Below, one piece after another: positions 227-33,037 of a stretch of 45,371 bases of DNA. How positions within the stretch are numbered: position 1 is the first letter of the stretch; every line of letters starts with the position of its first letter. This stretch comes from Prochlorococcus sp. AG-679-K21 (GTDB lineage: Bacteria; Cyanobacteriota; Cyanobacteriia; PCC-6307; Cyanobiaceae), in NCBI GenBank assembly GCA_003208885.1, contig QCUP01000006.1, forward strand, positions 1 through 45,371. The letters run 5' to 3'. The notes beneath the pieces were generated by a model. That model saw only the letters and a program-made list of their open reading frames with translations. It did not search any database and was not told the origin of the DNA. The position numbers and the translations under genes were made by a program.

Positions 227-1232
227 AAAAAGGATTCTTTCTGGAGTTCAACCTACAGGAGATTTACATATTGGTAATTGGCTTGGAGCTATAAGCAATT
301 GGGTTGCACTCCAAGAGAAGCATGAAACATTCCTTTGTGTAGTTGATTTACATGCAATTACTACAGAATATGACCCCAAACAACTTTCTGAGAATACACT
401 TTCCACTGCCGCTTTATATGTTGCTTGTGGCATAGATCCTAAAATTTGTTCTATTTTTGTTCAAAGCCAGATATCTGCACATTCAGAACTTTGTTGGATA
501 TTAAATTGTATGACTCCCATAAATTGGATGGAAAGAATGATCCAATTCAAGGAAAAATCTATTCAGCAAGGAAATAATGTTTCTATTGGATTATTTGATT
601 ATCCAATCTTAATGGCTGCGGATATTTTGTTATACGATGCTGATTATGTTCCAGTAGGGGAAGATCAAAAACAACACTTAGAACTTGCCAGAGATATTGC
701 ACAACAAAGAATTAATGCCAAATTTAGTAAAGGAGAAAATATATTAAAAATTCCTCAACCAATAATTATGAAAAAAGGTTCAAAGATAATGAGCTTAAAT
801 GATGGATCAAAAAAAATGAGCAAAAGTGACAATAATGAGGGTAGTAGAATTAATTTGTTAGATACTCCTGAAATAATTACAAAAAAAATAAAAAGAGCTA
901 AAAGTGATAGTTATATGGGAATGGAATTTAATAATCCAGAGAGGCCTGAATCCAGAAATCTATTAATGATTTATTCATTATTAAGTGGTAAAGAAGTTTC
1001 TGAATTAGAGAGCGATTTATCTCAAACAGGATGGGGGACATTTAAAAAAGTATTTACAGAACAACTTATAGAATCGCTTAAACCTATCCAAGAAAGATAT
1101 CAGGTTCTGATTAACGATCCATATGAATTAAATAAGATACTTATAAAAGGTAAAGAGAAAGCTGAAGTAGTGGCAAATAAAACCCTTAGTAGAGTTAAAT
1201 CTGAATTAGGATTCTTTGAAATGGAGAAATAA
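216..1232 (+). CDS. trpS: Tryptophanyl-tRNA synthetase
   Basis: Cytoplasmic class I aminoacyl-tRNA synthetase that charges tRNA-Trp. The protein is 338 residues, the normal bacterial length. The N terminus carries the HIGH-type ATP-binding signature (PTGDLHIGN, residues 13-21). The second signature KMSKS is intact at residues 200-204. The motif DYPILMAADILLYDAD, typical of the Trp/Tyr synthetase fold, lies between them. The start codon lies in a GA-rich context and overlaps the preceding small gene; thrS follows after 3 bases, so the two synthetases probably share a transcript. Nothing is missing or truncated. Confidence 0.97.
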   Translation: MTNKKRILSGVQPTGDLHIGNWLGAISNWVALQEKHETFLCVVDLHAITTEYDPKQLSENTLSTAALYVACGIDPKICSIFVQSQISAHSELCWILNCMTPINWMERMIQFKEKSIQQGNNVSIGLFDYPILMAADILLYDADYVPVGEDQKQHLELARDIAQQRINAKFSKGENILKIPQPIIMKKGSKIMSLNDGSKKMSKSDNNEGSRINLLDTPEIITKKIKRAKSDSYMGMEFNNPERPESRNLLMIYSLLSGKEVSELESDLSQTGWGTFKKVFTEQLIESLKPIQERYQVLINDPYELNKILIKGKEKAEVVANKTLSRVKSELGFFEMEK

Positions 1233-1235
1233 ATT

Positions 1236-3152
1236 ATGCCCGAAATAACATTACCAGATGGATCTAAAAAAGTATTTGAAAAGCCAGTAACGATAAAAGA
1301 AATAGCTCAGAGTATTGGAACCGGCTTAGCCAAGGCAACAATTGCGGGCAAAGTAAATGATGTTCTTTTTGATGCAACACTTCCCATAGATAATGATTCT
1401 AAAGTGGTAATAATTACATCCCGAGATAAAGAAGGTATTGAGATAATTAGACATTCCTTTGCACATTTGATTGGTCATGCCGTTAAACAACTTTATCCAA
1501 ATATAAAAATGGCAATTGGTCCAGTAATTGATAATGGCTTTTATTACGATATTTTTTCGGAATATAGATTTACTCCTGAGGATTTAATAAAAATAGAAAA
1601 CAGAATTAATAACTTAATTAAAAAAAACTATGATGTTGAGATTTTACAAGTTACAAAAAAAGAAGCAATTAAAACTTTTCAAGAAAGAGATGAAACTTTT
1701 AAATTAAGAATAATTGAAGAAATTCCTGATGAAGGTCTCATCAATTTATATAAACATGAAGAATACATTGATATGTGCAGAGGTCCTCATGTTCCAAATA
1801 CAAGCCATCTTAGACATTTTAAATTATTAAAGTTATCTGGTTCATATTGGAGAGGTAATAGTGAAAATGAATCATTACAGAGAATATACGGAACTGCTTG
1901 GGCTAAAGAGAAAGAACTCAATGATTACTTAACAAGAATCGAAGAGGCTGAAAAAAGAGATCATAGAAAACTTGGTAAAAAGCATTCACTCTTTCATATA
2001 CAAGAAGAATCTCCAGGCATGATTTTTTGGCATCCAAATGGATGGACAATCTACCAAGTTCTTGAAAAATATATAAGAGAAATACTTAAAAAAAATAATT
2101 ATCTAGAAATTAAAACCCCTCAAGCTGTTGATAAATCTCTTTGGGAAAAATCAGGTCATTGGGAAAAATTCAGAGAAGATATGTTTACTACCGCATCAGA
2201 AAATAGAACTTATGCAATTAAACCAATGAATTGTCCTTGCCATATTCAAGTATTTAATCAAGGATTAAAAAGTTATAAAGATTTACCTATTCGTCTTGCT
2301 GAATTTGGTTCTTGTCATAGGAATGAACCATCTGGAGCATTACACGGCTTAATGAGAGTTAGAAACTTTACTCAGGATGACGCACATATTTTTTGTACAG
2401 AAGAACAAATTCAAGCTGAGGTATCTACTTTTATTGATCTTGTTTTTGAGGTTTATAAAACTTTTGGTTTTGATGAAATTATTATCAAATTATCAACCCG
2501 TCCTGAGAAAAGGGTGGGTAGTGAAAATATTTGGGATAAATCAGAAGAGGCACTTACCAAGGCTCTTGAAAATAAAAGTCTAAAATGGGAACTACAACCT
2601 GGAGAAGGGGCTTTTTATGGTCCAAAAATAGAGTTCTCTTTAAAAGATTGTCTTGATAGAGTCTGGCAATGTGGAACAATTCAAGTTGATTTTTCAATGC
2701 CTATAAGATTGGATGCAACTTATGTAGATTTAAATAACGAAAAAAGAAATCCAGTTATGCTTCACAGGGCAATTTTGGGTTCTTTTGAAAGATTTATAGG
2801 AATCTTAATTGAACAATATGAAGCTAAATTCCCAATCTGGCTTGCACCTTATCAAATTATTTTGTTGAGCATTACAGATAGGAATAATGAGAAATGTTTA
2901 AAATTTAATCAATTGATAAATACTAAGGGGTATCGTTCAAAAGTTGATACCAGAAATGAAAAAATAGGCTATAAGATAAGAGAAGCAACTATTGGAAGAA
3001 TTCCATTAATTGCCGTTATCGGCGACAAAGAAGAACAGGTTGATTCAGTTGCTTTAAGAGCATTGGATGGAAAAAATTTAGGAATTTTTAAGTTAGATGA
3101 TCTCTACAAATTAATGGATAACTTAATAGAAAAAAAAGGAAGAACAGAATAG
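1236..3152 (+). CDS. thrS: Threonyl-tRNA synthetase
   Basis: Class II aminoacyl-tRNA synthetase that charges tRNA-Thr and edits mischarged Ser-tRNA. The 638 residues contain the expected order: a TGS domain (about 1-64), an editing domain with an HxxxH motif near residue 73 and a CRGPH motif near 180, the class II catalytic core, and a C-terminal anticodon-binding domain from about residue 540. The zinc-binding Cys of the MNCPCH motif is at residue 333, and motif 2 ([14 protein letters not shown]) begins at 361. It follows trpS after 3 bases. No T-box or other leader is visible; none would fit in the spacing. Confidence 0.97.
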
Positions 3153-3162
3153 TTTTGATTAG

Positions 3163-4200
3163 ATGAATTTTCTTGCTTGTGATCTAGGAGGGACAAAAGT
3201 TCTATTAGGAATTTTCAAAAAGGATGTAAATACTGATTCTCCTAATTTAATTTTTAAAAAAAAATATGTATCTTCTGAATGGGATTCAATTGACTTAATT
3301 TTAGAAGATTTCTTAAAATATAAATGCAAGAATATTAATCATCCTTTGTATGCTTGTTTCGCTGTAGCAGGTCCTATATCTAAAAACAATGCAGAAATTA
3401 TTAATTTGTCATGGAATATTTCTGGAGATGGATTAAAAAAGAAATTTAAATTCAAAATTTGTGAGCTAGTAAATGATTTTGCGGTGCAAATTTATGGAAT
3501 ACCTTTTATAAAAAAAAGTCAATATTTTACTCTTCAAAACGGAGACCATTCAGCAGGCGGCAATAAAGATTTGCATGCTATTGTTGGCGCAGGAACTGGT
3601 CTAGGCATTGCAAAAGGCCTAATATCTGGAAGTAACGTAAAAGTCTTGGCTAGCGAAGGTGGTCATGTTGAATACTCTCCAAAGTCAGAATTAGAATGGG
3701 AATTAAAGAATTGGCTCAAATGTTCCCTAAAAGTTGAAAGGATATCTTGTGAAAGAATCATAAGTGGGACTGGGTTATCAAGAATAGCCGAATGGAGACT
3801 TAGCAAACCTGATGCTAAAAACCACCCTCTACAAAAACAGTTAAAAGAGTTAAAAATTTCTGATAATTTTAGAAAAGAAATTCCTCAAAAAATTTGTAAT
3901 CTTTCTAACCAAGGGGATACCCTAATGATTCAAGTGGAGAGGATATGGTTAGATGCTTACGCTTCTTTGTTGGGCGACGTTGCTCTTCAAGAATTATGTT
4001 TTGGAGGCTTATGGATTTCTGGAGGGACCGCACCAAAACATTTCATAAACTTTAAATCAGGTTTATTTATGAAACAATTTTCAGATAAAGGAAGATTAAA
4101 AGATATTCTTAAAAACATACCTGTGAATGTAATTTTAGATGAAGAGTTTGGACTATTTAGCGCAGCCTGCAGAGCAAAAATGCTTTCACAAATAAAATAA
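3163..4200 (+). CDS. glk: Glucokinase
   Basis: ATP-dependent phosphorylation of glucose to glucose-6-phosphate in the cytoplasm. The 345-residue protein fits the Glk family (PF02685) rather than the ROK family. An N-terminal phosphate-binding motif DLGGTK is at residues 7-12, a VNDFAVQ motif carries the likely catalytic Asp (D105), and there are a GAGTGLG loop near residue 142 and an SEGGH motif that contacts sugar. It sits 10 bases after thrS and 7 bases before thrB, so it is probably part of the same run of genes. A role in recycling glucose from glycogen or sucrose is inferred; glgB is also in this window. Confidence 0.9.
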   Translation: MNFLACDLGGTKVLLGIFKKDVNTDSPNLIFKKKYVSSEWDSIDLILEDFLKYKCKNINHPLYACFAVAGPISKNNAEIINLSWNISGDGLKKKFKFKICELVNDFAVQIYGIPFIKKSQYFTLQNGDHSAGGNKDLHAIVGAGTGLGIAKGLISGSNVKVLASEGGHVEYSPKSELEWELKNWLKCSLKVERISCERIISGTGLSRIAEWRLSKPDAKNHPLQKQLKELKISDNFRKEIPQKICNLSNQGDTLMIQVERIWLDAYASLLGDVALQELCFGGLWISGGTAPKHFINFKSGLFMKQFSDKGRLKDILKNIPVNVILDEEFGLFSAACRAKMLSQIK

Positions 4201-4207
4201 TTTTCAT

Positions 4208-5155
4208 ATGTCTTTTCCAGAAGTAGGGAAAAAAATTATCGTAACAGTTCCCTCTACAACTGCTAATCTAGGACCTGGATTCGACTGTCTAGGTGCAGCA
4301 TTAGATCTATATAATGAATTTATTTTTACAAGAATAGATGGAGGTGGAGATCGATTTGATTTGATAATGGAGAGTACCGATGGTAATCATTTAAGAGGAG
4401 GTCCAGAAAATTTAGTTTTTAGGGCTGCCCAGAAAGTATGGGAAAGTGCCAATATCAAACCTTTCGCACTTGAAGCTAGAGTAAAATTAGCAGTCCCCCC
4501 TGCACGCGGACTAGGGAGTAGTGCTACAGCAATAGTTGCAGGACTAATCGGAGCAAACGCGATTATGAACTCCCCTTTACCTAAAGAAAAACTTTTAGAA
4601 CTTGCAATTGATATTGAAGGTCATCCTGATAATGTAGTCCCTTCTCTTTTGGGGGGCCTTTGTTTAACCGCTAGGTCATCTTCTCAGAGATGGAGAATCA
4701 TTAGGTGTGACTGGCACGAATCCATTAAAGCTGTAGTGGCAATACCTGCTATACGTCTTAGTACAAGTGAAGCAAGGAGAGTAATGCCGAAGAATGTGCC
4801 TATTTCTGATGCAGTAACAAATATGGGAGCACTTACTTTATTACTAAATGGCTTAAAAACAGGTAACGAAGAATTAATAAAAGAGGGAATGTTTGACAGA
4901 TTACATGAACCATATAGATGGAAACTTATTAAAGGTGGATTGGAAGTTAAAGATGCTGCACTACAAGCTGGTGCTTTAGGCTGTGCAATTAGCGGGGCAG
5001 GGCCAAGTATCTTAGCTTTGTGTAAAAAGGATAATGGCAGAGAAGTCAGTCAAGCTATGGTAAAAGCTTGGGAAAACTCAGGCGTGGCAAGTAGAGCGCC
5101 ATATTTGAACGTGCAAACAACAGGCAGTCAATTTAGGGACATCTCTGGTAAGTAG
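4208..5155 (+). CDS. thrB: Homoserine kinase
   Basis: Phosphorylates L-homoserine to O-phosphohomoserine, the step before threonine synthase. The 315-residue protein is a GHMP-family kinase. Motif 1 (STTANLGPGFDCLGAALD) lies near residues 16-33, the ATP-binding motif PPARGLGSSATA at about 97-108, and the C-terminal motif CAISGAGPS at about 259-267. The length is normal. It follows glk closely and is separated from ndhD by 78 bases, where a new transcript could begin. Base composition is slightly less AT-rich than its neighbours, as expected for a conserved enzyme. Confidence 0.96.
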   Translation: MSFPEVGKKIIVTVPSTTANLGPGFDCLGAALDLYNEFIFTRIDGGGDRFDLIMESTDGNHLRGGPENLVFRAAQKVWESANIKPFALEARVKLAVPPARGLGSSATAIVAGLIGANAIMNSPLPKEKLLELAIDIEGHPDNVVPSLLGGLCLTARSSSQRWRIIRCDWHESIKAVVAIPAIRLSTSEARRVMPKNVPISDAVTNMGALTLLLNGLKTGNEELIKEGMFDRLHEPYRWKLIKGGLEVKDAALQAGALGCAISGAGPSILALCKKDNGREVSQAMVKAWENSGVASRAPYLNVQTTGSQFRDISGK

Positions 5156-5233
5156 TTTTACTTAGGCATTTTTAATGTTATAGTCTCAAGCTAGAACAAC
5201 TTCAACTAGAATAAAAAAATTATTCATTATTCT

Positions 5234-6778
5234 ATGAATTTAGAATCTTTTCCTTTACTATCATCAATTGTTTTATTACCCTTGGTTGGGGCATTGATAA
5301 TGCCTTTCTTAAGTTCTAAGGAAGGAGAAGATAATACACTCCCAAGAAATATCTCATTAAGTTTTTTATTTATAGATTTTTTACTCATAATTGGAGTCCT
5401 TTTCCAAAAGTTTGATACAACAGATAGCTCACTTCAACTTGTTGAAAGATTAACTTGGCTACCTTCAATAGGCTTAGAGTGGTCTCTTGGCGTAGATGGA
5501 TTATCTGCACCATTAGTAGCTTTGAGTGGATTAATTACATTCTTATCAGCTGCAGCTAGTTGGAAGATAAAGAAAAAGTCTAATTTGTATTTTGCTCTTT
5601 TATTAGTTCAGGCCTCAGCTCAAGCACTAGTTTTCCTTTCTCAAGATTTCTTATTATTTTTCTTGGCTTGGGAATTAGAATTAGTTCCTGTTTATCTTCT
5701 TATTGCTATTTGGGGAGGCAAGAAAAAATTATATGCAGCTACAAAATTTATTCTTTACACTGCTTTAGCATCTTTACTAATACTTATAAGTGGACTTGCA
5801 CTCGCATTGAGCGGAGATATATTTACCCTAAATCTGACCGAACTAACAAATAAACATGTAACAGGTAGTCTCGCATTATTATCTTATCTAGGATTTTTAA
5901 TAGGTTTTGGAGTAAAACTTCCTATCTTCCCATTGCATACTTGGTTACCTGATGCTCATGGGGAAGCTAACGCACCAGTCTCAATGTTACTAGCTGGAAT
6001 CCTTTTAAAGATGGGGGGATATGCTCTCTTAAGATTCAATGTTCAAATATTACCCGAAGTGCATCTACAACTTGCGCCTGCTTTAATTATTCTTGGAATT
6101 ATTAACATAATTTATGGAGCCTTAAATGCATTTGCTCAAGATAATGTAAAAAGAAGAATCGCTTGTAGTTCAGTAAGTCATATGGGTTTTGTTCTTCTAG
6201 GTATTGGAGCAGTTGATGCTTTAGGCATAAGCGGAGCAATGCTTCAAATGATAAGTCACGGACTTATTGCAGCAGCTATGTTCTTCGTCACGGGCTCTTT
6301 CTATGAGAGAACAAATACTCTGTCAATTCCCAACATGGGTGGTTTAGCAAAGGTCTTGCCAATAACATTTGCTTTTTTCCTTGCGAGTTCACTAGCGTCT
6401 CTAGCATTACCAGGAATGAGTGGATTTATAAGCGAAATCACCGTATTCTTAGGGATCACAAGTCAAGATGGATTTAGCTCTCTTTTTAGATCAATCACAA
6501 TTCTTATTGCAGCAATTGGTCTTGTCCTAACGCCCATATATCTTCTTTCGATGTGTAGAAGAGTATTTTTCGGACCTAGAATTCCTGCGCTAGCTACGGT
6601 AAAAGAAATGAATGGTAGAGAATTAACAATTGGGTTCAGTTTATTATTGCCTACTTTAGTGATAGGTTTTTGGCCAAAAATTGCCATAAATTTATATGAA
6701 TCATCAACAAACGCTCTCAGTCAACAACTAACATTAGCTAAATTAATTGGGTTAATCTCAAACATAAGTCAATTTTAA
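5234..6778 (+). CDS. ndhD: NAD(P)H-quinone oxidoreductase subunit 4 (NdhD)
   Basis: Proton-pumping membrane subunit of cyanobacterial NDH-1, acting in respiration and cyclic electron flow at the thylakoid membrane. The protein is 514 residues and almost entirely hydrophobic with about 14 predicted membrane segments. It carries MrpD/NuoM signatures: [12 protein letters not shown] with the key membrane Glu, a Lys in the ATKF segment, and [22 protein letters not shown]. The start is the first ATG after a 78-base AT-rich gap. It is probably the respiratory or cyclic D1-type subunit; a distinction from CO2-uptake D3/D4 paralogues needs phylogeny. Confidence 0.93.
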
Positions 6779-6789
6779 TCTTCGACAAA

Positions 6790-8877
6790 ATGGAAAGTTC
6801 AATTTTTAATTACGGAGAATTACCAGAATTTAATAAATTTACTTCAGATAGAATCAATCAAGAATTTCCAAGTGTAATAGAGAAGATTAATCTAGATTTC
6901 AAAAAATTTGAAAAATTCCTATCTAATTACTTGGAGCAAGAGAATTTAGAATGGGACAAAGTAATTAATCCTTTAAATGAAGTTAATGAAATTTTAAGGT
7001 GGAGTTGGGGAGTAATAAGCCATCTTAATGGAGTAAAAAATTCTGAAAGCTTAAGAGAAATTTATGCAAAATTTCTCCCCGAAATTATTAATTTAAGTAA
7101 TAAGTTTGGACAAAGTAAAATAATTTTCAATGTTTTGGTAAAGCTTAAAGAAACAAATAATTTTGATGAGATCAGGAATAGAATTCTAGATAAAGAAATT
7201 ATAGAAATGGAACAAAGAGGTATTTCATTAAATATAGCTAATCAGAAAGAATTTAATATCAATTCTGAAAAGCTTGGGAAACTATCTACAAATTTCAGTA
7301 ATAATGTTTTAGATGCCACTAATTCTTGGTTTTTAATCCTAAATGATAAATCTCAAATAGATGGAGTTCCAGAAAGGGTCCTAGAATTAATGTCAATATC
7401 AGCTCACAAATACTTAAAAAAAGAAGGAGAAGCTGATGCAAAAAATGGTCCATGGAAGCTAAGTTTAGATATTCCGACATACACCGCGTTTATGACATAT
7501 GCCAATGATCGTAATCTCAGGGAAAAATTATATAAAGCTTATGTAAGCAGAGCCTCTCATGGAGAGAAAAATAACTCTCAAATTATTGAAGAGATTCTAT
7601 CTCTCAGGACTAAACAGGCTAAACTTCTTGGTTATGAAAGCTGGGCAGAATTAAGTCTTTCAACAAAAATGGCTAAGGAAATTAAAAATGTTGAAAAACT
7701 TCTAGAGGAGCTAAGAAAACCTGCCTTTGAAACAGCCAAAAATGAATTAGATAGACTTAATAAGTTTTCAAAAGATAATGGATTCCCAAATTCAGAAAAT
7801 CTTCAATCTTGGGATATAAGCTATTGGTCTGAGCTTCTAAGAAAAGAAGAACTTAATTTAGATCAAGAGTCACTTAGGCCCTGGTTCCCTCTTAATGATG
7901 TTTTAAAAGGTCTTTTTAAACTCAGTGAAAAGCTCTTCGAAATTAAAGTAATTGAAGCCAGGAATGAAGCTCCTATTTGGAATAATGACGTTTTATTTTT
8001 TAATATCCTGAATAAAGATGATAAAAAAATAGCTTCATTTTATCTAGACCCATACTCACGTCCCGAGTCAAAGAGAGGAGGGGCATGGATGGATGAATGC
8101 CTTAACAAAAACAATATTGGTAGAAATACATTACCGGTTGCCTATTTAGTTTGTAATCAAACCCCACCATCCAAAGATAAACCAAGTTTGATGAGTTTTG
8201 ATGAAGTTCAAACCTTGTTCCATGAATTTGGTCATGGTCTTCAACACATGCTAACAACAGTAAATCTTCCACAAGCAGCCGGTATTAATAATGTTGAATG
8301 GGATGCTGTTGAACTTCCAAGTCAATTTATGGAAAACTGGTGTTTTCACAAAAACACCTTATTAAATATTGCAAAACACTATAAAACAGGGGAAAGATTA
8401 TCTGATGAGAATTTCGAAAAATTAGTAAAGAATAGATCTTTTAATTGCGGAATGGCTACTCTAAGACAATTACATTTTGCAATTACAGATATAAGATTGC
8501 ATAGCAATATTGATAGTAATCAGGGCAAAAATTCTGATGAGATCAGAAAAGAAATTGCCAGAAATACAACCGTAATCGAACCTATCCGAGAAGATAGATT
8601 CCTTTGTAGCTTTAGTCACATATTTGCAGGAGGTTATTCGGCTGGGTATTATTCTTATAAATGGGCTGAGGTTTTAAGTGCCGATGCTTTTTCTATGTTT
8701 GAAGAGGCAGACTTAGAAAATAATCAAAATATAAAGGCAATCGGTAAAAAATTCAAAGATACAATTTTAAGTCTTGGAGGAAGTTTATCTCCTTTAGAGG
8801 TATTTAAATTATTTAGAGGGAGAGAACCAAAAACGGATTCTTTGATAAGACACTTAGGTCTATCATCTGTTAATTAA
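6790..8877 (+). CDS. prlC: Oligopeptidase A-like M3 zinc metallopeptidase
   Basis: Cytoplasmic thimet/oligopeptidase (peptidase family M3) that degrades short peptides. The protein is 695 residues, the family's usual size. The zinc site is HEFGH at residues 478-482, followed by the downstream Glu-containing segment NNVEWDAVELPSQFMENW that supplies the third ligand. A C-terminal substrate motif (GGYSAGYYSYKWAEVLSAD) is present near 617. No signal peptide is seen. It starts 11 bases after ndhD. Its 3' end overlaps the convergent alpha/beta hydrolase gene by 8 bases. The symbol follows the enterobacterial prlC/opdA; orthology is inferred. Confidence 0.9.
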   Translation: MESSIFNYGELPEFNKFTSDRINQEFPSVIEKINLDFKKFEKFLSNYLEQENLEWDKVINPLNEVNEILRWSWGVISHLNGVKNSESLREIYAKFLPEIINLSNKFGQSKIIFNVLVKLKETNNFDEIRNRILDKEIIEMEQRGISLNIANQKEFNINSEKLGKLSTNFSNNVLDATNSWFLILNDKSQIDGVPERVLELMSISAHKYLKKEGEADAKNGPWKLSLDIPTYTAFMTYANDRNLREKLYKAYVSRASHGEKNNSQIIEEILSLRTKQAKLLGYESWAELSLSTKMAKEIKNVEKLLEELRKPAFETAKNELDRLNKFSKDNGFPNSENLQSWDISYWSELLRKEELNLDQESLRPWFPLNDVLKGLFKLSEKLFEIKVIEARNEAPIWNNDVLFFNILNKDDKKIASFYLDPYSRPESKRGGAWMDECLNKNNIGRNTLPVAYLVCNQTPPSKDKPSLMSFDEVQTLFHEFGHGLQHMLTTVNLPQAAGINNVEWDAVELPSQFMENWCFHKNTLLNIAKHYKTGERLSDENFEKLVKNRSFNCGMATLRQLHFAITDIRLHSNIDSNQGKNSDEIRKEIARNTTVIEPIREDRFLCSFSHIFAGGYSAGYYSYKWAEVLSADAFSMFEEADLENNQNIKAIGKKFKDTILSLGGSLSPLEVFKLFRGREPKTDSLIRHLGLSSVN

Positions 8878-9463
8878 GAATTCTTTCGATAATCTTATCG
8901 ACCGCAACTGGATTGCTTACCAAATTTTTATGTTTATAGATCTTTAATGGTATTTTCTCACCCGAATTCAAACTAGCTCTCCATCCAGGGAAAACCATAA
9001 GATCCCAATAAGTAAAAAAACTAATACAATTGATTCCACTAAGAAGGTAATCGTATCTAGAAAGCTCTCTTAATAAAAGACTATTTATTTTCATCTCATA
9101 TATTCCTCTAAACGGATATTTAGGAACTAATTGGGATGCAAGAGTTCCTTTGTGAGGAGAACCAACAGTAATAAATCTTCTAGTTCTTTTATAACCATTG
9201 AATTTTTTAATCCAATACCTCCCGATTACTCCACCCATCGAGAATCCTAAAATATCAATCTCGTTTTCTAAACCATACTTCTCTAAAATTAAATCATTTA
9301 ATAAATTAGTTAATTCAACAATAGATGTCATTCCATATGCGTGCTTTAAAGTTGGTGCAAAATATTCAATTCCAATTTTATCTAGTTTAGAAGTAATAGA
9401 GGAAAATATATCTGCGGTATTCCAGAGACCATGAATTAATATTATTGGATTTCTCTTTGACAA
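8870..9463 (-). CDS. Alpha/beta-fold lipase-like hydrolase
   Basis: Serine hydrolase of the triacylglycerol-lipase-like alpha/beta group. The N terminus has the oxyanion motif ILIHGLWN (residues 8-15), the nucleophile elbow GFSMGG places the catalytic Ser at 75, and a GSPHKGT motif near 122 is typical of this lipase group. A His in the last 25 residues (KHKN) is the probable catalytic His. There is no signal peptide, so it is likely cytoplasmic or membrane-associated. The substrate is unknown. It is the last gene of a minus-strand run folB-hydrolase with a 5-base gap, and its tail overlaps the M3 peptidase tail by 8 bases. Confidence 0.8.
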   Translation of the reverse strand: MSKRNPIILIHGLWNTADIFSSITSKLDKIGIEYFAPTLKHAYGMTSIVELTNLLNDLILEKYGLENEIDILGFSMGGVIGRYWIKKFNGYKRTRRFITVGSPHKGTLASQLVPKYPFRGIYEMKINSLLLRELSRYDYLLSGINCISFFTYWDLMVFPGWRASLNSGEKIPLKIYKHKNLVSNPVAVDKIIERILN

Positions 9464-9468
9464 AACCT

Positions 9469-9831
9469 TTAATTATTTTCAAAAACTCTTACTATTGAAA
9501 CACCTCCATCAAACCCAGTAATTGGAGGTTTGCATTTCGTTAATATAATTTTTATTCGGCTAAGTTGGAACTCTTCATCAATAATTCTTAAAATTTCATT
9601 TGAATATTTCTCAATCGTAAAGCAACATATATTCTTAGATTGATATTTCAATATTTCAACTAATTTTGAATAATCAACTGTACTTTTAATATCATCATTT
9701 TGAGTAGAATTTTCAAAATCAGCCCATAAAAAAACATCTAAACTAAAAAGTTGGCCTAATTCCCTTTCTTCTTCCAGGACTCCTACTCTTGCCCAAAGTT
9801 TAATGTCCTTGATTTTTAAATATGTTTCCAT
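9469..9831 (-). CDS. folB: Dihydroneopterin aldolase
   Basis: Converts 7,8-dihydroneopterin to 6-hydroxymethyl-dihydropterin and glycolaldehyde in folate synthesis. The protein is 120 residues, as usual. Visible family features are the N-terminal IKLWARVGVLEEERELGQ segment (with the conserved Gly-Val and Glu), the DYSKLVEIL helix, the IEKYSNEI helix and the C-terminal catalytic-Lys region ILTKCKPP. It lies 11 bases downstream of proA and 5 bases upstream of the hydrolase, so the three are probably co-transcribed although not metabolically linked. Confidence 0.92.
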   Translation of the reverse strand: METYLKIKDIKLWARVGVLEEERELGQLFSLDVFLWADFENSTQNDDIKSTVDYSKLVEILKYQSKNICCFTIEKYSNEILRIIDEEFQLSRIKIILTKCKPPITGFDGGVSIVRVFENN

Positions 9832-28753: not shown

Positions 28754-29026
28754 TTAAAATGCTTGGATCCATGGATAAATATTAAAATCAATCCATATAC
28801 CTTCCTGCCAATAAATATCTTTCTCAATTAATTGTCTTAATTCTTTTTCATTATTAGCGTTAAAAATACCAAATAAATATTTTGTACATTTAGTAGGTCC
28901 TAAAGTAATTAAAATATTTCTATTTTTTAAATCCCCAAGTCTATCAAGATGCTTTTTACGAAATGGTTCCCTTTTGTTAATTGCATCATCACAATACTTC
29001 CCAAATACTATAAATTTTTCCATCAT
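28754..29026 (-). CDS. YciI-like protein
   Basis: A 90-residue YCII-related protein. It shows the small ferredoxin-like fold pattern FIVFGKYCDD, RKKHLDRLGDL (with the conserved His) and GIFNANNEKELRQLIEKD. The Asp-His pair usual in YciI proteins appears to be present as HLDRLG. Members are presumed enzymes of unclear substrate. The gene is divergent from cyAbrB across 96 bases. Confidence 0.82.
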   Translation of the reverse strand: MMEKFIVFGKYCDDAINKREPFRKKHLDRLGDLKNRNILITLGPTKCTKYLFGIFNANNEKELRQLIEKDIYWQEGIWIDFNIYPWIQAF

Positions 29027-30773: not shown

Positions 30774-31007
30774 TTAACCTTTGCTATCTCCTCTTAATCT
30801 GAGATTTAAAAAAGGAGAAAATAAAATTAAACCTGGAAAAAAAAGAAATACTAATCCATAAACTACTAATCTCTCAAATTTGCCCATAACATTCCACCTA
30901 TTATTCATCCAGTAAAAAAGTATTAACGGAATAACCACTAAATAAATAGAAATAATTCCAACGTAGGCAACTAAAGTAGCAAATGAATTATTAAAAATAC
31001 TTTCCAT
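30774..31007 (-). CDS. ndhL: NAD(P)H-quinone oxidoreductase subunit L (NdhL)
   Basis: Small membrane subunit specific to cyanobacterial and chloroplast NDH-1, historically linked to inorganic carbon transport. The 77-residue protein has two membrane helices (about 10-32 and 46-64), with the NdhL signature [16 protein letters not shown] between them and [17 protein letters not shown]. It lies downstream of tRNA-Leu on the same strand with a 79-base gap and upstream of the DUF3007 gene. Confidence 0.93.
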
Positions 31008-31086
31008 TTAAATTTCGGGTTTATTTAGTTAAAACTTAACAACTATTGAAAGTTATCGTTAGAACTAAAAATAAATAGATTTAGAA

Positions 31087-31172
31087 TGGGAGTGGGGGGA
31101 CTTGAACCCCCACGAGCTAAAGCGCTCGACGGATTTTAAGTCCGGCGCGTCTACCAATTCCGCCACACTCCC
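31087..31172 (-). tRNA. tRNA-Leu (UAA)
   Basis: An 86-base class II tRNA. The acceptor stem pairs GGGAGTG with CACTCCC, with discriminator A; the CCA end is not encoded. The D arm has GCG/CGC and GG; the anticodon loop is CTTAAAA with anticodon TAA (31136-31138 on the plus strand); the long variable arm is CGAGC/GCTCG; the T arm is GGGGG TTCAAGT CCCCC. The outermost anticodon-stem pair is a C-U mismatch. There is no group I intron, which some cyanobacterial tRNA-Leu(UAA) genes have. Its 5' half is duplicated at 31770-31809. Confidence 0.97.
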
Positions 31173-31241
31173 AAAAGGAATTTGCGCTTTTTAATCGTAG
31201 CCGAAAGTATCTCAATTGAACAAGAAAAATGCGAATATTTA
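31133..31241. repeat. Direct repeat copy 1: tRNA-Leu 5' half plus upstream region
   Basis: This segment covers the anticodon loop, the 5' half of the tRNA-Leu gene and about 70 bases upstream of it. It matches 31770-31878 without gaps at a constant offset of 637 bases; by hand count 93 of 109 positions agree. The first 15 bases, starting in the anticodon loop, are identical. Confidence 0.9.
31194..31223 (-). promoter_or_regulatory. Putative promoter of tRNA-Leu
   Basis: On the minus strand TTGTTC (31218-31223) and TACGAT (31194-31199) are separated by 18 bases and the -10 ends 21 bases before the tRNA. The TACGAT box and the bases just before it are identical in the decayed duplicate at 31831-31836. 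Confidence 0.45.
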
Positions 31242-31371
31242 CACTTTTAAGGAAGCAATAGCGGCGCTGGATATTTTTAGAATTAGATTATTTTGAATTA
31301 TACAAATATTTACTAGTAAAAATTAAGATCGCTGATAAGTTATTAATAATTACTTTTAATTGAAAAAATAA

Positions 31372-31563
31372 ATGACGAGGATTATCAGAGCAAAAAAAGG
31401 GTCCTGGTTTTTAGGCGTCTGCAAAGGTCTTGAAAAATCTAATAGAGGAAATGTTTTTTTCTGGCGATTAGTTTTTTTCATCTCTGCATGTTTTACCTTT
31501 GGCATTCCAATTTTGATATATCTTGGACTGGCTGTTATTTTTCCTATTGAAAAATCAGAATAA
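31372..31563 (+). CDS. PspC-domain small membrane protein
   Basis: A 63-residue protein with a single PspC-like module. The N-terminal motif is IIRAKKGSWFLGVCKGLEK, followed by a hydrophobic helix of about 20 residues (residues ~38-57, ending LAVIFPIE) that crosses the membrane. PspC proteins act in envelope-stress responses in enterobacteria; here there is only the module. It lies between the two tRNA-Leu repeat copies. The frame ends at a TAA just after an A5 run, and another frame stays open past it for about 45 codons (see findings). Confidence 0.75.
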   Translation: MTRIIRAKKGSWFLGVCKGLEKSNRGNVFFWRLVFFISACFTFGIPILIYLGLAVIFPIEKSE

Positions 31564-31697
31564 GTATTTCAGCTAGTGATCTAAAGTCAAAAAATCTCGA
31601 AATTAGTGAAATTCATTTAAAAATACTGGGAAATTTAATGGTTTATGATTTGCCAGATTATGTCTTGGATATTTATCCTAATGTAGATAGGTTATAA
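31551..31697 (+). other. Orphan open reading frame behind the PspC gene, possible broken extension
   Basis: A stop-free frame of about 48 codons, offset -1 from the PspC frame, begins just after TGA at 31548-31550 and ends at TAA 31695-31697. It has no ATG, GTG or TTG except an ATG at 31638, so only a 19-residue peptide (MVYDLPDYVLDIYPNVDRL) could start normally. The composition is protein-like (acidic, Leu/Ile/Tyr). It may be a decayed C-terminal part of a longer PspC-type protein or chance; I do not recognise it. Confidence 0.3.
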
Positions 31698-31987
31698 ATT
31701 AAGAAAGGGACTAAGTTTTACCTCAATCCCTAAATTAGCTTTTCGCTAGTATATTAAATTATAGATTTAATTTTAAGTCCGGCGTTTCTACCAACTCCGC
31801 CACACGCCCAAAAGTAATTTGCGTTTCCCAATCGTAGCCGAAACCATATCAATTAAAAAAGAAAAATACCAATATTTAAGTTTTCTCGGAAATTTAAAAT
31901 TGAATTATATCTTTCAATCATAAAATTAATCTTTTTAAAAAAATTTTAAACTCATATTTTCCTTTAGTTTATGCATTTTCTTAATTT
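31564..31987. other. Gene-free 424-base region between PspC and pyrC
   Basis: Contents in order: the orphan frame described above (to 31697); a small inverted repeat AGGGA...TCCCT (31706-31731); a hairpin TAGC-ttttc-GCTA (31736-31748); an inverted repeat ATTAAAT-TATAG-ATTTAAT (31753-31771) that abuts the tRNA fragment; the second repeat copy (31770-31878); and an AT-rich stretch to pyrC. No complete gene is visible. Confidence 0.7.
31770..31878. repeat. Direct repeat copy 2: decayed tRNA-Leu 5' half with upstream region
   Basis: Positions 31770-31809 (minus strand) are the 5' half of a tRNA-Leu: acceptor GGGCGTG, D arm and 5' side of the anticodon stem-loop. The 3' half is absent, and the acceptor no longer complements the real tRNA. 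Substitutions at four tRNA positions show decay. The 70 bases beyond match the upstream region of the intact tRNA, including the putative -10 box. Confidence 0.88.
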
Positions 31988-33037
31988 TTATTTAACTACT
32001 CCCTCTACTCGCCAATTTAAAGTTTCACCTCCATGAAATGGTTTTATTTGTCCAACAACTTTATTTTTCTCAATTACTTCAATAAATTCTGGAATTTTAT
32101 TTGACCTAGATACCAATCTTATTTTTTCTTTATTAATAGGTAAATTATAAAAAGTAGGTCCATTCAAGCTAGCAAACTTTTCGAATTGATTTAGTGCATT
32201 TTCCTCCTCAAAAACTTTTAAATAACTTTCAATTGCTACTGGAGAATTGAAGATGCCTGCACAACCACAAAAAGCTTTCCACTGTCTTAGGTGAGGAGCA
32301 GAATCTGTACCCAAGAAAAAGCATTCTTTTCCACTAGTAGCAGCTTTCCTTAAAGCAATTCTATTATTTTCTCTCTTAGCGACTGGTAAGCAGTAAAAGT
32401 CACTATTAAGACCTCCAAAGAACATTGCATTTCTATTTATATGTAAATGATGGGGAGTAATAGTAGCTCCTAAGTTATTCCTCTGAACAAAATCAACTGC
32501 ATGAGAGGTAGTTATATGTTCTAAAACAATCTTTAACTTTGGAAATTGTTTTATTAAAGGTGAAAGTTCTTTATCTATAAAAACCTCTTCCCTATCAAAA
32601 ATATCTACTTCAGGATCTGTTACTTCTCCATGAATTAAAAGTGGCATTCCTAGTTCTTGCATAACTTCAAATATTCCATAAAGATTTTCTATTTTTTTAA
32701 CTCCATGGCTTGAGTTTGTTGTTGCATTAGCAGGATACAATTTGGCAGCAAAAAAAACTTTATTATTAAAGCCTTCTATTATTTCATGTTTTATTGTCTC
32801 ATCCGTCAGATATATCGTCATTAATGGCTCAAAAGTAGAATTCGCCGACAATGCTTCAGATATAGATTTCTTATAAGTAATACATTTTTCAATTGATGTT
32901 ATTGGGTTTTTGGTGTTTGGCATCACAATGGCTCTACCAAAAACTTCAGAGGTAAACCTAATAATATTTTTTAAAACAATGCCTTCCCTTAAGTGTAAAT
33001 GCCAATCATCAGGTTTTAATATAGTTAATTCTTTCAA
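31988..33037 (-). CDS. pyrC: Dihydroorotase
   Basis: Cyclises N-carbamoyl-aspartate to dihydroorotate in pyrimidine synthesis. The 349-residue protein is class II (E. coli PyrC-like). The metal-binding HLH is at residues 13-15 in DWHLHLREG, the carboxylated Lys at 99 (AAKLYPA), and further His ligands in LLIHGE and LEHITT, with the catalytic Asp in FLGTDSAPH. All are present. Its start faces a divergent antiporter gene across 107 bases. Confidence 0.95.
   Translation of the reverse strand: MKELTILKPDDWHLHLREGIVLKNIIRFTSEVFGRAIVMPNTKNPITSIEKCITYKKSISEALSANSTFEPLMTIYLTDETIKHEIIEGFNNKVFFAAKLYPANATTNSSHGVKKIENLYGIFEVMQELGMPLLIHGEVTDPEVDIFDREEVFIDKELSPLIKQFPKLKIVLEHITTSHAVDFVQRNNLGATITPHHLHINRNAMFFGGLNSDFYCLPVAKRENNRIALRKAATSGKECFFLGTDSAPHLRQWKAFCGCAGIFNSPVAIESYLKVFEEENALNQFEKFASLNGPTFYNLPINKEKIRLVSRSNKIPEFIEVIEKNKVVGQIKPFHGGETLNWRVEGVVK

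Follow-up and report, generated by a model that had tools for sequence, protein, structure and literature searches.

A duplicated tRNA-Leu half in Prochlorococcus as part of a likely cassette with T7-like cyanophage attachment arms

The window analysed here, a 45,371-nucleotide stretch of Prochlorococcus sp. AG-679-K21 (contig QCUP01000006.1), carries an intact tRNA-Leu(UAA) gene and, at an offset of 637 bp, a second copy of the 5' half of that gene. How did a tRNA half and its promoter come to be present twice at this locus? An earlier note, made from the sequence alone, had proposed one old integration event and had kept a simple segmental duplication as the alternative.

The repeat and the DNA between its copies

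Positions 31133-31241 and 31770-31878 are identical at 93 of 109 positions without gaps, including all of the leading 15. The next-best 109-mer in the whole window, on either strand, has 55 matching positions, and a repeat search of the window extends the pair to 122 nt at 82% identity. The copy begins at tRNA nucleotide 41, immediately 3' of the anticodon (nt 36-38), spans the 5' half of the tRNA, and continues into the upstream region. The counts, the separation, and the start at the anticodon loop given in the earlier note all held. Its 109-bp identity has been refined: the recombination core is reflected by the tRNA half only (31770-31810, 90%), and the upstream identity of the copies exists because a host-type promoter lies at both tRNA copies in the window cassette. 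The features of the locus are as follows.

30774-31007, minus strand: conserved left flank gene, 77 aa (synteny)
31086-31173, minus strand: intact tRNA-Leu(UAA) (ARAGORN; Rfam RF00005, 59.8 bits)
31133-31173, minus strand: 5' half of the intact tRNA-Leu(UAA) with the recombination core inside (39-bp core common to T7-like phage attP)
31174-31254, minus strand: promoter region currently serving the tRNA, host-type sequence (repeat of 31811-31891)
31257-31274, no strand assigned: degenerate near-arm motif at the offset where phages have CGCTAG (phage int gene end); best identity to phages 17/22
31372-31563, plus strand: cargo gene, 63-aa PspC-domain membrane protein (Pfam PF04024, E 9.5e-11)
31652-31768, no strand assigned: far attP arm, with homology to the intergenic arm that T7-like cyanophages have between core and RNAP (85% over 117 nt; CGCTAG at 31744)
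31770-31810, minus strand: displaced tRNA-Leu 5' half, the outer attachment-site copy, partly decayed (90% identity to the intact half)
31811-31891, minus strand: displaced former host promoter region of the tRNA (resemblance to empty sites)
31988-33037, minus strand: conserved right flank gene pyrC (synteny), coding for dihydroorotase (function named from sequence)

The promoter at 31174-31254 is inferred to be cassette-borne despite its host-type sequence. A coding reading of the open stretch past pspC (31564-31697) was dropped, as the portion from 31652 is phage-type attP arm. No recombinase ORF is present in the 637-bp insert, and the earlier statement that the window has no integrase holds for the insert. 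No phage genes were found within it, and PspC is its sole cargo. The insert therefore does not meet the definition of a T7-like prophage in gene content, nor does it carry an integrase in cis. The window copy is partly decayed and is possibly immobile now.

Empty sites, occupied sites, and phage-type arms

In total, 184 loci were classified. Of these, 173 were resolved, with both the tRNA and pyrC present (the window locus included), three had the tRNA with pyrC out of reach, and eight, from five genomes, lacked a full tRNA. The 173 loci are a non-random sample of 266 genomes, since those with unusual matches had been retrieved before the others, and the window genome (G000) is a 1.07 Mb draft that is 66% complete. 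The tRNA-Leu site was empty in 124 resolved loci, with 102-192 bp between the tRNA and pyrC, and was occupied by diverse genes in 49, with distances of 355-3559 bp. The gene order orf106, orf77, tRNA, insert, pyrC, naCa, gor was retained in the loci compared for synteny. Relatives of the window with an empty site have a tRNA promoter that continues directly into the pyrC spacer.

Comparison with the empty sites shows that insertion took place. A direct partial-tRNA repeat flanks the insert and the site is uninterrupted in relatives, which meets the criterion for tRNA-targeted site-specific insertion. Presence or absence of cassettes at one tRNA with partial-tRNA repeats also meets the criterion for an additive flexible genomic island. 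The alignment of this locus across Prochlorococcus genomes, which the earlier note had named as a check, gave variable inserts and empty sites and favours integration. The claim of one old event held in part: integration is strongly supported, but more than one event took place.

A recognisable copy of the tRNA 5' half was found in 39 of the 49 inserts, and three loci (L072, L073, and L251) hold tandem inserts with two half-tRNA copies each. At 60-110 nt upstream, the half-tRNA-copy side was closer than the intact-tRNA side to some empty site in 38 of 39 loci. From this comparison, it is inferred that the half copy retains the old host side and that the intact tRNA received a new one. For the window, the displaced copy agrees with the empty site L085 at 32 of 35 positions at 75-110 nt, where the intact copy is alignable over 15 columns only. 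At 0-75 nt, the intact copy is nearer to L085 (70/74, against 65/75 for the displaced copy), because the near-arm promoter is host-type and the displaced copy is decayed.

Some observations at this site stand apart from the counts. Matches to the tRNA-Leu half in G145 and G206 (L227 and L079) were considered as new insertion loci and rejected, and neither was counted. L227 is a tRNA-Leu(CAA) and hence no new insertion locus; L079, at a contig end with the same kind of neighbour gene, is read likewise, with no tRNA called there. In L039 (G072:C22), the entire locus occurs twice, inverted, on one 16-kb contig, which is probably an amplification or an assembly chimera. In about twelve draft genomes, a contig ends approximately 2.0-2.4 kb left of tRNA-Leu (near 28800 in the window, by analogy), a recurrent assembly break.

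The attachment motifs of T7-like cyanophages are 39 bp long and match the first half of tRNA-Leu (PMC8776855), a point that bears on the earlier remark that a duplicated 5' half is unusual. Integration of P-SSP7 and S-TIP37 into tRNA-Leu has been seen by PCR and required int and attP (PMC8776855). In P-SSP7, the half-tRNA sits between int (4896-5768) and RNAP (from 6039) with a TATAAT ahead of it, in line with the statement of the earlier note that this phage has a tRNA-Leu stretch beside its integrase. An exact 39-mer search of IMG/VR matched 90 stretches, 80 of which were fetched and examined. A T7-like RNAP lay beside the core in 78 of these 80 viral loci and an integrase on the other side in 68; at least one of the two was next to the core in each.

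The 117-nt far-arm match of the window is to phage locus L185 (E 2e-33, 131 bits), and far arm plus core are 86% identical to phage over 160 nt. The proposed comparison with P-SSP7-type attP sequences thus showed that the tRNA half is the attP core and that the adjoining DNA is homologous to the arm. With an attP-like core and arms of phage type, the insert meets the criterion of attP membership, its near-arm motif being degenerate.

Phage-type attP arms are shown for most inserts. Identities of cassette arms to T7-like phage attP reach 98%, and in L055 the two arms are 95% and 89% identical to those of a single phage. The far arm was detected in 42 of 49 (E<=1e-5). It was undetectable in seven, four of which (L048, L308, L037, and L259) have neither arm at this threshold. 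In the first set, 30 of 31 fragments had a far arm at 72-234 bits, the second fragment of L073 giving only 30.1 bits; the best of 155 shuffles scored 31.9 bits. Homology of the P-SSP7-type far arms stops at -117 to -127 from the core in 22 of 26 cases (the remaining four end at -87, -136, -136, and -140), and the phage RNAP starts at -129 to -140, just past the usual end. For other phage types, the far-arm homology ends at -83 to -216, sometimes inside the RNAP gene.

A phage-type near arm is present in 20 of 49 inserts (E<=1e-5), in 18 of them immediately at the intact tRNA. Seven of these near arms end at 97-100 nt, beside the int stop codon (~96), and seven at approximately 200-223 nt. Other inserts, including that of the window, have a host-type promoter at the tRNA followed by a motif about 83-100 nt out, at the same offset as in phages. 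This motif has at least 16 of 22 identities to phages in 28 of the 31 loci whose intact tRNA has no phage near arm beside it (low scorers: L308 with 15, L269 with 15, and L259 with 12). One of the 124 empty loci reaches 16/22, and none is higher. These values are from a repeat of the test on all 31 loci and all 124 empties; the first test used 25 hand-picked host-type cassettes and 40 of the 124 empties.

Phages and cassettes alike have CGCTAG near +88/91 and -118/-26. The exact hexamer was found in the near arm of 9 and the far arm of 20 of the 25 cassettes examined; among the 124 empties, none has it in its first 140 nt. CTAGCG has six plus-strand copies in the examined P-SSP7 stretch, four of them around attP. 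In the window, where the near motif is degenerate, a single exact CGCTAG is left (31744, far arm). The CGCTAG copies are inferred to be arm-type integrase sites.

In empty host sites, the distance from the best TATAAT-like hexamer to the tRNA is mostly 25-26 nt; in phages, it is mostly 24-25 nt. Phages have their own TATAAT-like element upstream of the half-tRNA (e.g., P-SSP7 L135 5820-5860, near arms). Therefore, integration would swap the tRNA promoter and not destroy it.

Turnover, cargo, and the search for an integrase

Repeated turnover at the site is also shown. The host tree was a FastTree tree of one pyrC-naCa segment for 170 loci, 47 of them occupied (L082, L263, and L296 were left out). 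Occupancy required 41 changes on this tree; 500 shuffles required 41.3 on average, and 253 of them needed no more than the observed number. On this one-segment tree, occupancy tracks host phylogeny no better than shuffled labels, with the reservation that poor resolution also raises the number of changes. PspC inserts required 13 changes for 13 loci, a count made without a shuffle comparison.

Of the 266 genomes, 13 have a PspC relative with 70% identity or more, in each case at the tRNA-Leu site. The cargo is found in two arm frameworks: the P-SSP7 type (window, L081-L083, L043, and L047) and that of L194 and relatives (L060, L062, L063, L068, and L069). Divergence of the cargo is shown to be at odds with that of the flank. 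The dS of pspC is lower than that of the adjacent pyrC for the window and L043 (0.19 vs 0.66) and for L068 and L060 (0.10 vs 0.53), and higher for L047 and L068 (1.41 vs 0.32). Single dS values are rough because pspC is short. This discordance in both directions indicates that cassette and flank did not simply move together. Against four close relatives, the window PspC gives dN of 0.021-0.028 and dS of 0.13-0.26, and in this comparison the cargo gene is still constrained.

Three distant PspC relatives (54-56% identity) are located elsewhere. Two of these, L360 (G233) and L361 (G198), lie beside tRNA-Ser(GCT), perhaps another tRNA hotspot. The third, L359 (G166), has no tRNA called nearby, and an ORF near it resembles a small DNA-binding excisionase. 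These loci gave short, weak matches at most to the tRNA-Leu cassette arms.

The inserts, about 0.25-3.5 kb in size, contain 85 ORFs of at least 60 aa, which fall into 30 clusters after overlap removal. Some of these clusters are surely spurious, one being the antisense of pspC. Most inserts carry one gene and some carry two or three, in either orientation. Pfam named 7 of 10 scanned cargo proteins (PspC, outer-membrane beta-barrel, DUF805, TM2, TPR, DUF4234, and PDZ), and a simple hydropathy scan found a signal or membrane segment in many cargo proteins. PHROGs matched 3 of 10 (phage 2OG-Fe(II) oxygenase-like, phage membrane protein-like, and a phage family of unknown function). No match was found by tblastn between the 85 cargo ORFs and 81 phage loci, integrase included. 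Searches of viral contigs with the PspC, TPR, and OMP cargo, sensitive to close relatives only, returned none. A defence role is speculation because none of 10 cargo proteins had a defence match in PADLOC. A role of the cargo in envelope change or phage entry is possible, but this is a guess.

The P-SSP7 integrase had no match (E<=1e-6) in the window genome or in the 266 genomes of the genus, many of them incomplete. An alignment of 10 phage integrases found distant tyrosine recombinases (at most 50.4 bits) in 34 of 266 genomes and none in the window genome. Of the 49 occupied genomes, eight belong to these 34 and 41 had no hit. Four phages that are themselves members of the alignment scored 459-478 bits, a control that proves that the search works but not how far it reaches. 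The missing integrase is not proof of absence because many genomes are incomplete drafts. An integrase acting in trans from an infecting phage is inferred, as the simplest source of the enzyme, because no close relative was found in cassettes or host genomes.

In one genome, a phage is shown to be joined to the host at the same junction. The G034 contig reads, in order, pyrC (in two frames), tRNA half, phage far arm, RNAP, and more phage genes; the far arm is 96% identical to L143, and the RNAP has 91% amino acid identity to that of P-SSP7. The feature is as follows.

L226 (G034:C40:15500-25258), 1091-9759: apparent P-SSP7-like podovirus at the host tRNA-Leu; the phage sequence continues for about 8.6 kb, up to the contig end

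This junction has the geometry of a cassette with a phage as cargo. A chimera is possible, as there is one junction only and the genome is 55% complete. Relatives of the P-SSP7 RNAP occur in only 3 of 266 genomes. According to one paper (PMC7852597), no prophage has been seen in any isolate or single cell of Prochlorococcus, and G034 is therefore noteworthy. Apart from this, T7-like RNAPs 26-29% identical to that of P-SSP7 were seen in two Prochlorococcus genomes, at G114:C13:7557-9869 and in G076 (C43 and C34), perhaps from other phages in infected cells.

Mechanism, rival explanations, and meaning

Site-specific insertion at a T7-like cyanophage attachment site is very likely, indeed close to certain. 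The repeat would be the attachment-site pair around a 637-bp integrated cassette made up of a PspC-domain gene and a T7-like attP (far arm, tRNA-Leu 5'-half core, promoter, and near arm). Recombination in the tRNA 5' half would have placed this cassette between the tRNA and its old promoter and pushed the old 5' half and promoter to the pyrC side. The tRNA would be preserved because the cassette supplies the same 5' half plus a promoter. The integrase would come in trans from T7-like cyanophages (P-SSP7 and relatives) infecting the cell, and the process would have been repeated with many different genes, sometimes in tandem, giving an integron-like hotspot driven by phage.

This whole reading, in which integrase-less, integron-like cassettes are inserted by a cyanophage integrase in trans, is likely, with mobilisation itself unobserved. 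Catalysis in trans, the circular intermediate, the intercellular vehicle, and the cargo function are inferred. That the phage enzyme recombines the cassette site is likewise inferred, from arm homology and from the fact that no close host relative of the integrase was found. No free or phage-borne cassette was seen in the PspC, TPR, and OMP searches of viral contigs, which reach close relatives only. Points against the trans reading are the host-type near arm and degenerate motif of the window, the seven inserts without a detectable far arm (four of them with neither arm at E<=1e-5), the lack of a near-arm motif in L259 and L308, and the distant host recombinases, which could act in place of the phage enzyme.

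The strongest rival is that the inserts are prophage remnants, in which T7-like phages at tRNA-Leu lost nearly all genes and left attP arms plus a later-acquired gene. The phage joined to the host in G034, the seven near arms of 200-223 nt that pass the int stop codon (~96), the several far arms (-147 to -216) that reach into the RNAP gene, and the resemblance of three cargo proteins to phage families support it. Against it stand the absence of tblastn hits for 85 cargo ORFs in 81 phage loci, the uniform boundaries in 22 of 26 P-SSP7-type arms, the PspC cargo in two different arm frameworks, the tandem inserts, and the discordant divergence of cargo and flank. It is unlikely as a general explanation, although deletion remains possible as the origin of the first cassettes.

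Ordinary homologous recombination, through flanking DNA or through the duplicated tRNA half with its promoter and without an integrase, is very unlikely. In its favour, the flanking genes are syntenic, P-SSP7 mispackages host DNA (PMC7852597), and one cassette class has host-type promoters, which hints at exchange. However, all 39 inserts with a recognisable copy have their junctions within the same half-tRNA, the cassettes have kept phage-type arms and arm motifs, and the pspC and pyrC dS values are discordant in both directions. A further rival is that a host or tycheposon tyrosine recombinase, and not the phage enzyme, moves the cassettes. This idea rests on the distant recombinases in 34 of 266 genomes, eight among the 49 occupied. 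Cassette arms up to 98% identical to T7-like phage attP, scores of at most 50.4 bits against 459-478 for phages in the alignment, and the 41 of 49 occupied genomes without a hit (drafts, partly incomplete) speak against it, making it very unlikely. A simple segmental duplication of the tRNA 5' half and promoter, to which two similar copies 637 bp apart had pointed, is all but excluded and refuted by the existence of empty sites: the whole insert is missing in near relatives, phage-type attP and a gene confined to such inserts lie between the copies, and other strains have different inserts at the same point.

The proposed cassettes resemble several known systems. T7-like cyanophage integration (P-SSP7 and S-TIP37) has the same attP core, insertion point, and orientation, with homologous arms (PMC8776855). 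In contrast, the window insert consists of one gene not found in phage loci, has no integrase, measures 637 bp, and persists, whereas phage integration was concluded to be transient (PMC8776855). Cassettes with tRNA-fragment repeats are already known from additive flexible genomic islands of Actinomarinales, Alteromonas, and Methylophilaceae (PMC7771536, PMC4119200, PMC10872708). In the sections bearing on it, the repeat of the Methylophilaceae and Alteromonas examples is the tRNA 3' end, whereas the tRNA-Leu cassettes repeat the 5' half with promoter, carry one to three genes, and have T7-like attP ends. Integrons and CALINs (PMC11389934) share small, sometimes tandem cassettes, recombination sites, and an integrase in trans (inferred for the tRNA-Leu cassettes), but the sites here are tRNA/attP sites of a phage tyrosine recombinase and cargo lies in either orientation.

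Tycheposons are likewise tRNA-linked cargo elements in Prochlorococcus. They are described as 4-200 kb, and those of Methylophilaceae have a tyrosine recombinase (PMC10872708). By these values, taken second-hand from that paper, the 637-bp window insert without a recombinase ORF is no tycheposon, and the inserts in general differ in their size of about 0.25-3.5 kb, the lack of a recombinase found, the use of the tRNA 5' half, and the podophage attP match. For a phage satellite, the indirect evidence is negative, as the viral contigs gave no close relative of the PspC, TPR, or OMP cargo. In the literature searched, by title and opening of the abstract, no paper described integrase-less cassettes that have a podophage attP and sit at tRNA-Leu.

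Prochlorococcus is among the most abundant photosynthetic organisms and has small genomes. Only a few ways in which it gains single genes are known. Although T7-like cyanophages are lytic, they often retain an integrase, the benefit of which has been called uncertain (PMC8776855). The window copy belongs to a large class of such inserts, and the site is a hotspot for small cassettes whose ends are of phage type. A duplicated tRNA 5' half is not necessarily just a decayed curiosity. Cassettes with phage-type attP would show that phage recombination leaves lasting marks in host genomes, and they would offer a direct assay as well as a census of the genes exchanged at a phage attachment site.

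A bolder reading can be put forward, for which the evidence at present falls a little short of even support. Prochlorococcus would have an integron-like gene exchange with a recombinase from lytic T7-like phages, and the cassettes, as part of the same joint claim, would imitate attP, bring the tRNA promoter, stack at tRNA-Leu, and shuttle mainly envelope and secreted proteins between lineages. It is possible that the shuttled proteins modulate phage entry. If true, this reading would mean that the transient integration of these lytic phages matters for evolution.
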